Source: Artemia franciscana (lineage: Eukaryota > Arthropoda > Branchiopoda > Anostraca > Artemiidae). From it: a stretch of DNA of 64,000 nt. Both the position numbers and the translations under genes were made by a program. Within the stretch, counting starts at the first letter, position 1; the number at the start of each line of letters is the position of its first letter. The stretch lies in the NCBI RefSeq assembly GCF_032884065.1, contig NC_088872.1:8617493-8681492 (forward strand). Direction: 5' to 3'. Under the pieces are notes generated by a model. That model saw nothing but the letters and a program-made list of their open reading frames with translations, was not told where the DNA came from and ran no database searches. Shown one piece after another: positions 13,251 through 38,828 of this stretch.

Positions 13251-13310
13251 ATGATGATACAACCCCGCAGATATGACATTATTTTGATTCAAAAAATTTC
13301 CGTTACCTGA
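13251..13310 (+). ncRNA. Box C/D snoRNA, family F2 copy a
   Basis: Box C ATGATGA (13251) and box D CTGA (13307) are 60 nt apart end to end, with a C'-like TTTGATTC inside. The sequence matches 37217-37275 almost throughout, including ACAACCCCGCAGATATGA, although the two loci are 24 kb apart. A 3' splice site (CTCTTTACAG) follows 73 nt after box D. A weak AT terminal stem is possible. I could not assign an rRNA target for either guide. Confidence 0.72.
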
Positions 13311-13383
13311 TTGAATGCTATCTGTTCATTGTTGCATGTGTATTTCCCTATGTTTTTGGTAATAAGGATTTTCCTCTTTACAG

Positions 13384-13495
13384 TTAGGGGTTTAAATCAT
13401 TCCTGTGACTATCGACAAACCAGTAAGTCTCAATACTATTGAAGATTTGGGGAGACAGAAGATAAGAATTAAATGTATTGTCAGTGGTAATCAAG
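13384..13495 (+). other. Probable host-gene exon
   Basis: Acceptor CTCTTTACAG and donor TCAAG|GTATG bound 112 nt. No open frame is evident. It is the counterpart of the exon at 37345-37450 downstream of the paralogous snoRNA. Confidence 0.5.
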
Positions 13496-14159
13496 GTATG
13501 GTTCTTTTTATCACATTTATTTCCTGTGATTCCTTATGTTTTATATGATCGTATTTTGGAATTAATTTTGTATTATCGAATTAATTTCGTGAATTTCGTG
13601 CTTTGGAATTAGTCTTTTAATTGTTAACGGCTTGGTTAATATCTTTGGCACAAAAGTGGGGGGACTCTTTTTTGTGGCTTAGAAAATAGTTACCCAAGAT
13701 TTATGTTTGGTCGTAAACAATGTATGGTATTGTATGACAAAGCATTTTGTGACTTATTGAGACACGTCCGTTAATTTTTTGAATTAAAATCAACTTGGAG
13801 AAAGTGATGGAATACTGGAGCGCTATGGCTAATTAGAGTAAAATCAAGAGGGATGGTACCTGTGAGAGGGAAAGCTGGCATAACTTACAGCATTGTATAA
13901 AATGATACATTATGTTAGTATGACAATGGTGGTATTCTACTTTTTAATTTGATTTCAATGTCCCATTAGTTGACTGTCTATCCGAGTCTAGTAGAACATA
14001 AATACATTTAATAAAAATTTAATAAAAACAGAAATTGAAGTTTGTATTTTGTATATTTAAATTTGTATAATAATTACGTATCTCAGCAAATAAAGTGAGG
14101 AAGTCTTCTTTTTAGTCAAACAGACTTGAAAAGTTAGAATAATATCTCTTTATATGCCA

Positions 14160-14890
14160 GGTTTGCCCCTCTCACTCACTCGGACTCTCTGTCTTGGCTT
14201 TTTCTACAATTAGCCATAGCTTGATGCCAACAACTACTGGATTTTGAAACTGTTGATTTTAAATTATAATCAAGTAGTTATGGGCATCAAGCCATGGCTA
14301 ATTGCAAAAAAAAAGCCAAGACAGAGTCTGAGCGAGTGAGAGGAACAAATTTAGCAAGCCCTTATTAGGATTGTATAAAAATGATATCAGTTCATTTGTT
14401 GATAAATAAGTTTATCTATCATCCGTCTTTGTGTCATTCCTAGGGCAGAACTAAGGGATGAAACAATCGGATTAATTTTGGATTGATGCGTGACGGGTAA
14501 TGTCCACTGGACTAAGGTGCAAAATCTGGGACTGAAGTCGCTCTGACTCACAGACGAACAAGTGAAACCTAAGCCTAATAGGCTTGGCTGCTTGTAGTCT
14601 AAAGGTGGAATACCCTGTCAAAATTGACACATGACCAACAAGTCCTCTGGACTCGCAGGCGAACGATGAAACCTATAGTTTTCCAAGTCTGGCTAAATGG
14701 CACGGGTAACCGGCGGGAGTAAGTATGAGTCTTATTGGACAAATAATTATCTATGAACAAATGAACTGACATCATTTTAATACAATCCTAATAAGGGCTT
14801 ATGCCACATTTGCCCCTCTCACCCACTCGGACTATCTGTCTAGGGTTTTTCTACGACTAGTCTGGGCTTGATGCCAACAACCACTTAATT
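14160..14890. repeat. Fold-back/TIR element with nested inverted repeats
   Basis: A block (TTTGCCCCTCTCAC...GGCTTGATGCCAACAAC) at 14160-14240 is inverted at 14277-14350 and appears again direct at 14806-14888. An adjacent block (AAGCCCTTATTAGGATTGTA) at 14351-14420 is inverted at 14735-14803. The main element is therefore 14277-14888 with ~145-bp terminal inverted repeats. A related single arm lies at 30440-30640. The interior holds a 28S rRNA-like segment, reported under findings. Confidence 0.75.
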
Positions 14891-15049
14891 CTAATTCAAA
14901 GATAAGTCTTTCGAACTTAAACTTCAATCCCGTAAGATCCAAACTCAAAGTTTGTTGAAATCAATAATGATGTAATGCAGCGGTGATCAGTAGTGACAGT
15001 GATGTGGCCAGTAGTAATTGCGATAGAAAATTGATGAGTTGAAGTTGAT

Positions 15050-16118
15050 TTGGATGATGACACTACCTTGTTGCCAATCAAATGAAATTTAAACTTTAGT
15101 TAGGGAACATTTAGTGTAAGTGAATTAAGTCAATTTTTAAAGGAAGAAAGATATGCTGGAAAGTTTAAAATGCCCGCCCTTTATTGGTATTATTGAACAG
15201 TGAAAATGATACAACCAGTAAAGATAGTAGTAAAAGTAGGTCTGCTAAGAGTTTGAAAAAACAGAATTATAATATTGGCTTTAAAAGAAAGGAACAGAAA
15301 AAACTGGATGATGAAATCTGGACGATGACACTACCTTGTTGCCAATCAAATGAAATTTAAACTTTAATTAGGGAACATTTAGTGTAAGTGAATTAAGTCA
15401 ATTTTTAAAGGAAGGAAGATATGCTGGAAAGTTTTAAATGCCCGCCCTTTATTGGTATTATTGAACAGTGAAAATGATACAGCCAGTAAAGATAGTAGTA
15501 AAAGTAGGTCTGCTAAGAGTTTGAAAAAACAGAATTATAATATTGGCTTTAAAAGAAAGGAACAGAAAAAACTGGATGATGACACTACCTTGTTGCCAAT
15601 CAAAGGAAATTTAAACTTTAGTTTGGGAACATTTAGTGTAAGTGAATTAAGTTAATTTTTAAAGGAAGAAAGATATGCTGGAAAGTTCAAAATGCCCACC
15701 CTTTATTGGTATTATTGAACAGTGAAAATGATACAGCCAGTAAAGATAGTAGTAAAAGTAGGTCTGCTAAGAGTTTGAAAAAACAGAATTATAATATTGC
15801 CTTTAAAAGAAAGGAACAGAAAAAACTGGATGATGAAATCTGGATGATGACACTACCTTGTTGCCAATCAAAGGAAATTTAAACTTTAGTTTGGGAACAT
15901 TTAGTGTAAGTGAATTAAGTCAATTTTTAAAGGAAGAAAGATATGCTGGAAAGTTCAAAATGCCCACCCTTTAGTGGTATTATTGAACAGTGAAAATCAT
16001 ACAGCCAGTAAAGTTAGTAGTAAAAGTAGGTCTGCTAAGAGTTTGGAAAAGCAAAATTATAATATTGCCTTTAAAAGAAAGGAACAAAAAAACTAAAATT
16101 ACGATATATTTAATTAGC
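15050..16118 (+). repeat. Tandem repeat, four units of ~254-268 bp
   Basis: The CACTACCTTGTTGCC phrase recurs at 15061, 15329, 15583 and 15851, giving periods of 268, 254 and 268. The 14-nt difference is one inserted GAAATCTGGATGAT-like block. Units are nearly identical. In one frame part of the unit reads NSENDTASKDSSKSRSAKSL then KKQNYNIGFKRKEQKK, but stops and frame changes interrupt it between units. The array ends at the first U58-like snoRNA intron, and a diverged single copy of its end precedes the snoRNA at 18339. Confidence 0.85.
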
Positions 16119-16179
16119 ATGATGATCATTCTTAGGACACCTAACGAGCTTAAGGCTTTGATTAGTATTTTTAAACTGA
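16119..16179 (+). ncRNA. SNORD58-like: U58-like box C/D snoRNA, copy a
   Basis: Box C ATGATGA (16119-16125), box D CTGA (16176-16179) and an internal C'-like TGATTAG. The guide CTTAGGACACCT (16131-16142) is a 12-nt perfect complement of the conserved 28S rRNA segment AGGTGTCCTAAG. This is the site guided by vertebrate U58/SNORD58, whose guide, as I recall it, has the same core. It is predicted to direct 2'-O-methylation of 28S rRNA in the nucleolus with fibrillarin, NOP56, NOP58 and SNU13. Length (61 nt) equals that of the two paralogues. A 3' splice site (TACTTTTCAG) lies 71 nt after box D. The terminal stem is weak. Confidence 0.85.
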
Positions 16180-16250
16180 ATTTAAAAAAAATGCCAACCA
16201 CATTGTTAATGCCTAAATATCATCTTCTATTGCTAGGGTCTACTTTTCAG

Positions 16251-37275: not shown

Positions 37276-37344
37276 TTTAAATATTGTGTATATTTTTGTA
37301 TGTCTTTTCTATGGCTTTGGTACTATGTGACGTTTTTCTTACAG

Positions 37345-37450
37345 ATTTTTTTTTTTGATGTTTGAATAATCAACCAGAAGAAAATAGAAGTATTTATTTT
37401 CTTTAGGACGTCAATGTGAAAAAATTGGATGCATGCTCCATAGTTAAAAG
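37345..37450 (+). other. Probable host-gene exon
   Basis: Acceptor TTTCTTACAG, donor TTAAAAG|GTATGA, 106 nt. Positional counterpart of the exon at 13384-13495. No open frame. Confidence 0.5.
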
Positions 37451-38406
37451 GTATGATTTATTTTTGTTTGTTTCGATATATCTCTGAATTTATATTTTTG
37501 TACCCTGATATAAAGGGGCATTTCTATAATTTTATAAGCTACAGTTTTTTGTTAGAGTATTTTAATGAGAAATTCGTTTAGAAAGTAGACTATGAAGTTT
37601 TTAGAGAATCTTGTTTCTGACTAGGGATAAGAAAATCTGTGAAAATCTTGCCTTCTCACTTTACAAAGAATTTGGATCAATTATATTAGATTTTTTAAAT
37701 GTTTTTCTTTTGACTTGGATAAAATAAACAGGTTCTTATCAGAAAATTCCTTGTTCATGATATTACAGTTTAACTTGAATTACTGTTCAGAAAACTCAAA
37801 CACAGATTATGTCCAGAGGCTGTTTTAGGAGTGGGACAGAGGGTCACCTGCCCAAGGCATGAATGTCAAGGGCGGAAAGTTTCAAATAAATAATATATTT
37901 GAAACATAAATTTGAACATAAAAAAATAAAGCAGATTGCGCGGTTACTTAATGAAAGTAATTGATAAATTATTAAGCAATAGATTAAAATATTCGAAATA
38001 GTTAAATAATTAAAATAATTATATTATCTAATAAATAGAAAAACAAAATTGTTTGCAGATGAATATTCTGTTAAAACTTTGTCTGAAGATCATGCGGGAG
38101 ACTGAGGAGGGACTATTCAATATTCTGCCCCGGTTGCAAGAGAGGCTCAGAACCGCCACTGCTTCCGTCCGTATTTCCCCTTATCATCGCCTAATTAAGT
38201 TCTTTCAGGTTCTCAAGTTCATCGTGTTTTTTTTTAGGTATTTTTTTTCTTTTGTCTTCTCTGTCTTCCACTTTTGATGTTTTTACTCCTTGCTATTTTT
38301 TACTTGCTAATCTTCAAATGTTTTCCATTTCGATTTGTATTCGTTTTTCTGTGTTACTCCGTGTTTTTTGTTTACTATTGTGCAGCACATATAACAATAA
38401 AAAATA

Positions 38407-38550
38407 ATATTTATATATATATATTATATATATATATATAAAGATATATATATATATATATGTTATATATATATATATAAAGATATATATATATATATAT
38501 ATATATATTATATATATATATATATATATATATATATATATATATATATT
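38407..38550. repeat. (TA)n microsatellite with AAAG/TT interruptions
   Basis: About 145 bp of TA repeats broken by ATTATA and AAAGATA units. It ends at a TCTCTCACTCTT pyrimidine run. Confidence 0.95.
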
Positions 38551-38605
38551 CTCTCACTCTTCCTACCTCTCTCTTACTCTCTTATACACACATACGTCTG
38601 GTTGT

Positions 38606-38664
38606 ATGATGACTTGCTTCATGACGGTCTTCTTAATTGTATTGAAAGAACAATTGAACACTGA
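38606..38664 (+). ncRNA. Box C/D snoRNA, family F4 copy b
   Basis: Box C ATGATGA (38606), the shared TTGCTTCATGACGGTCTTCT guide block and box D CTGA (38661-38664). It is 59 nt, the same as copy a. The C' region has diverged (TATTGAAAGAA). Acceptor TGTTTTGTTTCAG ends at 38733, 69 nt after box D. Confidence 0.78.
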
Positions 38665-38733
38665 TATTAACCTATTTTTCAACTCTAGTCTTTGTTGCTC
38701 TATATTAGTTCTAATTCTTGTGTTTTGTTTCAG

Positions 38734-38828
38734 GATCCTTGGCCATTCACATGTTAAGACCTGCGAAAAGGAGCCTAGATTAAAGCAGCGAATAATCATA
38801 TAGCTCATAAGAAATGTATAAGACATTG
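38734..38828 (+). other. Probable host-gene exon, last seen
   Basis: It begins after TTTGTTTCAG. The 3' limit (ACATTG|GTAGAA) is a guess. It resembles the exon at 35872-35947. A short CTGATTGCTGTGCTGA-type tandem repeat follows at 38829-38935. Confidence 0.4.

Follow-up and report, generated by a model that had tools for sequence, protein, structure and literature searches.

A predicted non-coding host gene carrying eleven intronic box C/D snoRNAs in Artemia franciscana

Eleven box C/D units lie on one strand of the locus

The window analysed here is a stretch of 64,000 nucleotides of the Artemia franciscana genome (contig NC_088872.1, positions 8,617,493 to 8,681,492, forward strand), and all positions given below count from its first letter. 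The contig measures 51.7 Mb and the genome 1.27 Gb in 6468 contigs. Between 13.2 and 38.8 kb of the window, a first-pass annotation had recognised eleven units of the box C/D small nucleolar RNA (snoRNA) type on the + strand, and had assigned ten of them to four paralogous families. All eleven units, 59-64 nt long and including two with a CTGATGA start, were indeed read at these places (Table 1). Both boxes, NTGATGA for C and CTGA for D, are intact in 11/11 units, the C box being RTGATGA in nine of them and CTGATGA in two. The grouping was also borne out. Ten units form family A (13251/37217), family B (16119/16665/18339), family D (22359/25052/32713) and family E (35745/38606), and unit 20320 stands alone as family C.

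The motif NTGATGA-N46..55-CTGA was counted within positions 13001-39000. It occurs 11 times on the + strand and 0 times on the - strand, as compared to a mean of 0.38 and a maximum of 3 in 300 dinucleotide-preserving shuffles of the same interval. Elsewhere on the + strand of the window no match was found, and the - strand of the entire window gave a single one. The motif was also searched on both strands of ~255 kb of other loci, some of them overlapping and with units near the locus ends skipped. The 14 rows obtained correspond to 4 units of the window and to 10 rows at 8 distinct places. At 62-80 nt, 3′ splice-site scores do not exceed 2.2 at any of these 8 places, as compared to 4.3-9.6 in the 11 units of the window.

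A relaxed-box search for extra units, in which a 3′ splice site scoring at least 4.5 was required, returned 27 rows on the + strand and 6 on the - strand. Besides alternative readings of known units, none was judged convincing. Candidate 2997/3000 was dropped because it lies inside a reading frame, and candidates 16271, 21738 and 24203 for want of a paralogue or an exactly matching box. Unit 32713 is absent from the results of this search because its 3′ splice-site score of 4.3 is below the cut-off.

Each unit is followed by a sequence resembling a 3′ splice site

In 11/11 units, a pyrimidine-rich stretch followed by AG, as in a 3′ splice site, lies 68-75 nt past the CTGA box. Using a simple, hand-made scoring scheme, the mean score of the 11 units was 6.9 as compared to -2.8 (standard deviation 1.6) at random positions, and 0/5000 random sets equalled it. 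The weakest single acceptors are those of units 32713 and 16119, with 11% and 9% of random positions as good, respectively. Predicted donors align among the three exons following family D and between the two following family A. A dedicated host gene is recognised by one snoRNA per intron, all on one strand; here, the 11 + strand units each have a 3′ splice-site-like sequence of their own, the introns being predicted.

The guides can pair with ribosomal RNA

Copies of the ribosomal RNA (rRNA) of this genome were collected by pattern, and some of the loci were checked with cmscan; many copies are partial. In an anchored test, the guide beside the box was matched to rRNA and compared with 200 shuffled guides per unit. 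Family D can form 14 bp (one wobble) with 28S ACTGCCAGGGGAAC, shuffled guides being as good in 2, 0 and 1 of 200 cases for the three copies. Thirteen base pairs were obtained for family C with 28S CCGTCTTGAAACA, 2 nt from the D box (3/200). The same number was found for family B with 28S AGGTGTCCTAAGG (2, 0 and 3 of 200) and for family E with 28S AGACCGTCGTGAG (11 and 7 of 200), though the statistics of B and E are flattering because the match itself defined the D′ end. Unit 13251 of family A can pair over 12 bp with 18S GTAACGGGAATT (1/200), at a site which we take to be the U14 methylation site. Hence, if a guide is defined as at least ~10 nt next to D or D′, it is present at 13-14 bp in every copy of families B, C, D and E, and within family A in unit 13251 only.

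In an unanchored test by family, shuffled targets were as good in 46 (A), 1 (B), 4 (C), 13 (D) and 5 (E) of 60 cases, the value for D having been obtained with the 28S copy L046, without the best 28S copies. In view of the anchored and unanchored tests, families B, C and D carry the target case, E is fair and A depends on copy 13251.

Methylation sites were predicted following the rule that places them at the fifth base preceding the box. The predicted site is the C of GTAAC in 18S for family A, and the G of CCG in 28S CCGTCTTG for family C. For family D, it would be the first C of GCC in 28S ACTGCCAGG. For families B and E, the candidate sites in 28S are the G of AGGTG, if the D′ box is AACG, and the first C of AGACC, if the D′ box is CTTA, respectively. 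The family E site shows a mismatch in copy L039 and none at 7 places found by pattern, a count that gives the site no independent support because the pattern requires the unchanged sequence.

Initial target trials used the ribosomal DNA (rDNA) copies L019, L037 and L039; they were superseded, these copies being partial or diverged. Likewise, the first best 28S match of family D, CCAGGGGAATC at 4 nt from the D box, was dropped once copies with ACTGCCAGGGGAAC had been found. Pieces of rDNA are present on many contigs (L019, L036, L037, L039, L045, L046, L051), and several are truncated inside 28S. In L039, the 28S fragment is followed by what appears by eye to be a reverse-transcriptase sequence. 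The 18S copy in L037 contains GAGTGCTTAAAGCAGG, which is typical of arthropods.

Unit 20320 resembles U21

Unit 20320 matched the SNORD21 model RF00068 end to end, with 33.6 bits and an E value of 0.014 in 27 kb. Because this score is below the curated cut-off of 63 bits, we name the unit U21-like only. It shares with SNORD21 (U21) the guide TTTCAAGACGG to 28S, and the corresponding feature directed to 28S CCGUCUUGAAACA is present with 13/13 Watson-Crick pairs. In contrast, its length is 62 nt as compared to 95 positions in the model. Human U21 is located in an intron of RPL5; unlike that host, the one predicted for unit 20320 has no recognisable frame.

Exact-pattern searches of the 1.27 Gb genome covered the guides of families C and D. 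The U21 guide followed by its D box, TTTCAAGACGGNACTGA, was found at 1 place, which is unit 20320. The family D guide with its D box was found at 3 places, all of them the three units described here.

The family D guide faces a changed 28S site

The 28S of this genome reads CCACTGCCAGGGGAAC where the Rfam eukaryotic consensus has CCACAGcCAAGGGAAC, which makes two departures. Across the family D target, the Rfam consensus is CCACAGcCAAGGGAACGGGC. Genomic places fitting a pattern for this target numbered seven, five of which read ACTGCCAGGGGAACGGG and two, both on contig C260, CTAGCCAGGGGAACGGG; the reversed control of the pattern gave 1 match. At least two 28S variants exist at this target, and both altered bases of the ACTGCCAGGGGAACGGG form find a partner in the family D guide. 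We give about even odds to the guide having co-evolved with its 28S target. This we only infer, because the pattern had been designed around these forms, truncation affects at least one copy slightly further on, and the comparison concerns one genome of a single species.

Units are conserved beyond their surroundings

In seven older paralogous pairs, the units are 84-89% identical, with 47-57% identity in the 60 nt upstream, 52-75% from the D box to the acceptor and 47-59% in the first 100 nt of the exon. For comparison, alignments of random 60-mers have a mean identity of 45%, the highest being 89%. BLAST alignments end near the unit edges for 16119/18339 (64 nt) and for 35745/38606 (65 columns), and longer ones of 70 and 95 nt were obtained within family B. 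The pair 22359/25052 is 97% identical in the unit and 82-96% in the flanks. Because it results from a recent segmental duplication, this pair says little on selective conservation.

Several duplicated or repeated sequences were seen in the same region. The segmental duplication joins 20886-22958 to 23782-25658, with 79-91% identity in two main blocks, and doubled a family D intron and exon. Positions 33690-34105 are 76% identical to 35874-36296 and make an exon-like copy of the exon that follows unit 35745; the donor is included, and no snoRNA lies ahead. Judging from the sequence, this would be a duplicated exon that lost its snoRNA payload or never had one. Repeat arrays lie at 25783-27973 (spacing mostly ~280-295 nt) and 31168-32162, between units 25052 and 32713, and a strong C-over-G skew of the + strand is visible at 26001-28000. 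An imperfect hairpin with arms of 89 nt, 76% matched, occupies 14155-14356; the mir-3910 and mir-135 models matched it on both strands below their cut-offs, and related pieces near 14800 and 30441 suggest that it belongs to a mobile element. Finally, ATGATGAGGCGATAAACGATAAAAAGCTGA recurs many times among the motif matches listed genome-wide, six of them within ~30 kb (G000:C2:43513000-43543000), and is probably a repeat family.

The predicted exons tested have stops in every frame

Stop codons were found in all three frames of 9/9 predicted exons tested, out of 11 acceptors. For the exon starting at 16251, positions 16251-16433 were used; the nine exons tested are those with a placed end, which the exons at 20457 and 38734 do not have. 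The possibility that the exons after units 22359 and 25052 are coding was weighed from their sequence and discarded, as they have stops in all frames. A Pfam search of the six frames of 12001-39002 yielded no credible domain, with two sub-threshold matches (E values of 0.042 and 0.041). The first-pass annotation had described exons lacking a frame and an interval without a visible protein gene, and both descriptions agree with these results.

Upstream, the 10 kb before the window contain a gene on the + strand with matches to RRM and to the CCHC zinc knuckle. A glycine/tyrosine-rich + strand reading frame, which has no Pfam match of its own, ends at 3154 and may be the last exon of this gene. 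To the right of the cluster come ribophorin II sequences, then SEC24 from 52.8 kb on the + strand. The ribophorin II coding sequence contains an inverted repeat (44572-44826 / 45065-45319; 255 nt, 100% complementary, 238 nt apart). This stretch is thus present on both strands, as the result of either an inverted duplication of recent date or a fold-back in the assembly.

Table 1. Box C/D units and predicted exons of the locus (positions in the window; 3′ss, 3′ splice site, with its distance downstream of the unit)
Feature	Position	Strand	Remarks
C/D snoRNA, family A copy 1	13251..13310	+	Possible 12-bp pairing of D guide with 18S GTAACGGGAATT, directly next to D; 3′ss at 73 nt
Predicted non-coding exon after 13251	13384..13495	+	TTTACAG| to AAG|GTATGG; donor aligns with exon 37345-37450
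C/D snoRNA, family B copy 1	16119..16179	+	D′ guide against 28S AGGTGTCCTAAGG, 13 bp; 3′ss at 71 nt
Predicted non-coding exon after 16119	16251..16601	+	Donor AAG|GTAATC by scan; alternative ATAG|GTAATT ending 16436, by eye
C/D snoRNA, family B copy 2	16665..16725	+	3′ss at 69 nt
Predicted non-coding exon after 16665	16795..16946	+	Donor ending 17212 scores slightly better
C/D snoRNA, family B copy 3	18339..18399	+	3′ss at 71 nt
Predicted non-coding exon after 18339	18471..18676	+	From acceptor and donor scans
C/D snoRNA, family C, SNORD21 (U21)-like	20320..20381	+	D guide against 28S CCGTCTTGAAACA, 13 bp; 3′ss at 75 nt
Predicted exon after 20320, first base only	20457	+	End not placed, no donor above threshold
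C/D snoRNA, family D copy 1	22359..22422	+	CTGATGA C box; D guide against 28S ACTGCCAGGGGAAC, 14 bp, abutting D; 3′ss at 70 nt
Predicted non-coding exon after 22359	22493..22752	+	CTG|GTAAGC; donor aligns across the three paralogous exons
C/D snoRNA, family D copy 2	25052..25115	+	CTGATGA C box; recent duplicate of copy 1; 3′ss at 70 nt
Predicted non-coding exon after 25052	25186..25445	+	CAG|GTAAGC
C/D snoRNA, family D copy 3	32713..32775	+	3′ss at 71 nt, weakest of 11
Predicted non-coding exon after 32713	32847..33092	+	CAG|GTAATT, set here because aligned with two paralogous exons; donor ending 33236 scores 0.1 higher
C/D snoRNA, family E copy 1	35745..35803	+	D′ guide against 28S AGACCGTCGTGAG, 13 bp with wobbles; 3′ss at 68 nt
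Predicted non-coding exon after 35745	35872..35947	+	AAG|GTAATT, also in exon-like copy near 33690; donor ending 35999 scores 0.1 higher
C/D snoRNA, family A copy 2	37217..37275	+	GTGATGA C box; weak target match in this copy; 3′ss at 69 nt
Predicted non-coding exon after 37217	37345..37450	+	AAG|GTATGA
C/D snoRNA, family E copy 2	38606..38664	+	3′ss at 69 nt
Predicted exon after 38606, first base only, perhaps last exon	38734	+	End not placed, no donor above threshold

A single host gene and its alternatives

We consider, with a probability of roughly 0.92, that the locus is one non-coding host gene of the Uhg/SNHG type carrying eleven intronic box C/D snoRNAs. The UHG/GAS5-type reading, already put forward at the first pass, is supported by the boxes, the spacing from the D box to the 3′ splice site, the conservation of the units, most guides, the stops in the frames and the lack of protein domains.

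Several results nevertheless weigh against it. In the Rfam scan, no family reached its gathering score. Support from pairing with the rRNA of this genome is unequal, being good for B, C and D, fair for E and weak for A. The terminal stem scores 3.77 on average as compared to 3.87 at random positions, and 73/150 random sets were as good; a terminal stem beside the boxes is not known to be required in all animal C/D snoRNAs. As for the guides, unit 37217 of family A forms only 10 bp with GTAACGGGGA, with 66/200 shuffled guides as good, and the position of the degenerate D′ boxes of B and E was taken from the target match. In the unanchored scan, family A alone fell below the reversed-target control, in addition to the 46/60 and 13/60 recorded for A and D. 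On the side of splicing, units 32713 and 16119 have a higher-scoring AG elsewhere within 200 nt (at 142 and 57 nt, respectively), the 5′ splice-site scores are mildly above random (154/2000 random sets as good), and 2/11 exons, those starting at 20457 and 38734, have no donor above threshold. Lastly, older pairs align far past the unit in family A (124 columns) and in family D (25052/32713, 426).

That the snoRNAs lie in untranslated-region introns of a flanking + strand protein gene, either the upstream RRM/CCHC gene or SEC24, is unlikely. So many frameless exons would be unusual for an untranslated region, the nearest coding parts seen lie at a distance of at least ~10 kb, and the cluster is separated from SEC24 by ribophorin II sequence present on both strands. 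Both neighbours are however on the + strand, and one study describes that a Drosophila Uhg can share a long precursor with an upstream ribosomal protein gene (PMC5932544). We hold it to be improbable to a similar degree that several hosts, or single snoRNA genes with promoters of their own, follow one another in place of one long transcript. The large gap from 25.1 to 32.7 kb, filled with repeat arrays, would fit such a row, as would the ~3% of Drosophila snoRNAs reported as intergenic (PMC13228274), but every one of the 11 units is followed at 68-75 nt by a 3′ splice-site-like sequence, which points to introns.

Four repeated families, in a region with segmental duplications, could also be expected of dead copies or of a mobile element with snoRNA-like ends. 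Yet the units have remained similar while, in the older pairs, the flanks have diverged almost to random similarity, and the boxes are intact in all 11. Moreover, the family D and U21 guides with their box were found nowhere else by exact match, unlike a mobile element, and we regard this explanation as very improbable. Chance occurrence of C and D box motifs has the least credit, being next to negligible. RTGATGA-N19-CTGA does occur 586 + 574 times genome-wide as compared to 511 + 505 times for the reversed pattern, a spacing that is not that of the units, but the shuffle and splice-site controls contradict chance, as do the paralogy and the guide matches.

Predicted expression of the host and relation to known systems

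For a single host gene, we infer transcription, splicing, processing, ribonucleoprotein (RNP) assembly and methylation from the sequence. The promoter would lie between 3.2 and 13.2 kb, and + strand transcription would run from it to beyond 38.8 kb. The primary transcript would be spliced, with at least 11 introns, each containing one box C/D snoRNA ~70 nt before the 3′ splice site. Debranching would be followed by exonuclease trimming of the intron, up to the C/D RNP assembled on it, and by disposal of the exons. The mature RNAs of ~60 nt would guide 2′-O-methylation of 18S (family A) and of 28S (families B, C, which is U21-like, D and E). Four of the five snoRNAs would have been multiplied by tandem and segmental duplication, possibly with a higher dose as the outcome.

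In Drosophila, Uhg genes contain several copies of a single guide. The locus appears to work like these genes, and shows those features of the class that were tested. Uhg1-5, 7 and 8 are likewise non-coding hosts with several introns, each housing one snoRNA, and without a recognisable frame; here, in contrast, the 11 units are spread over ~25 kb with repeat arrays between them, and the likeness drawn is one of kind. The snoRNA content of the vertebrate SNHG genes (UHG, GAS5) differs from that of this locus, the likeness being that of a conserved payload inside a poorly conserved non-coding host. One study on Drosophila Uhg mentions up to 16 introns, with a single snoRNA in each save two, and no recognisable frame (PMC4430873), and the snoRNA clusters of Drosophila Uhg1-Uhg8 are called well characterised in another source (PMC13228274). 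For vertebrate SNHG hosts, a further source likewise describes a conserved payload in a poorly conserved non-coding host (PMC7719101), and TOP-type (terminal oligopyrimidine) initiation is reported for SNHG-type hosts (PMC6954239). No publication on this snoRNA locus turned up in literature searches made without the species name, a result of little weight.

Overall, 25 kb that looked empty becomes a predicted gene, with its products identified and five methylation sites predicted, at a locus missed by a scan at Rfam cut-offs. It would provide one more animal example of a dedicated snoRNA host with repeated guides. If the family D guide did co-evolve with its target, a non-coding host with duplicated copies may have allowed the guide to adapt to a change within a conserved rRNA region. 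This would open the question whether family D methylation persisted without a break, and would offer a concrete case for asking how a guide RNA tracks a changing ribosomal RNA.

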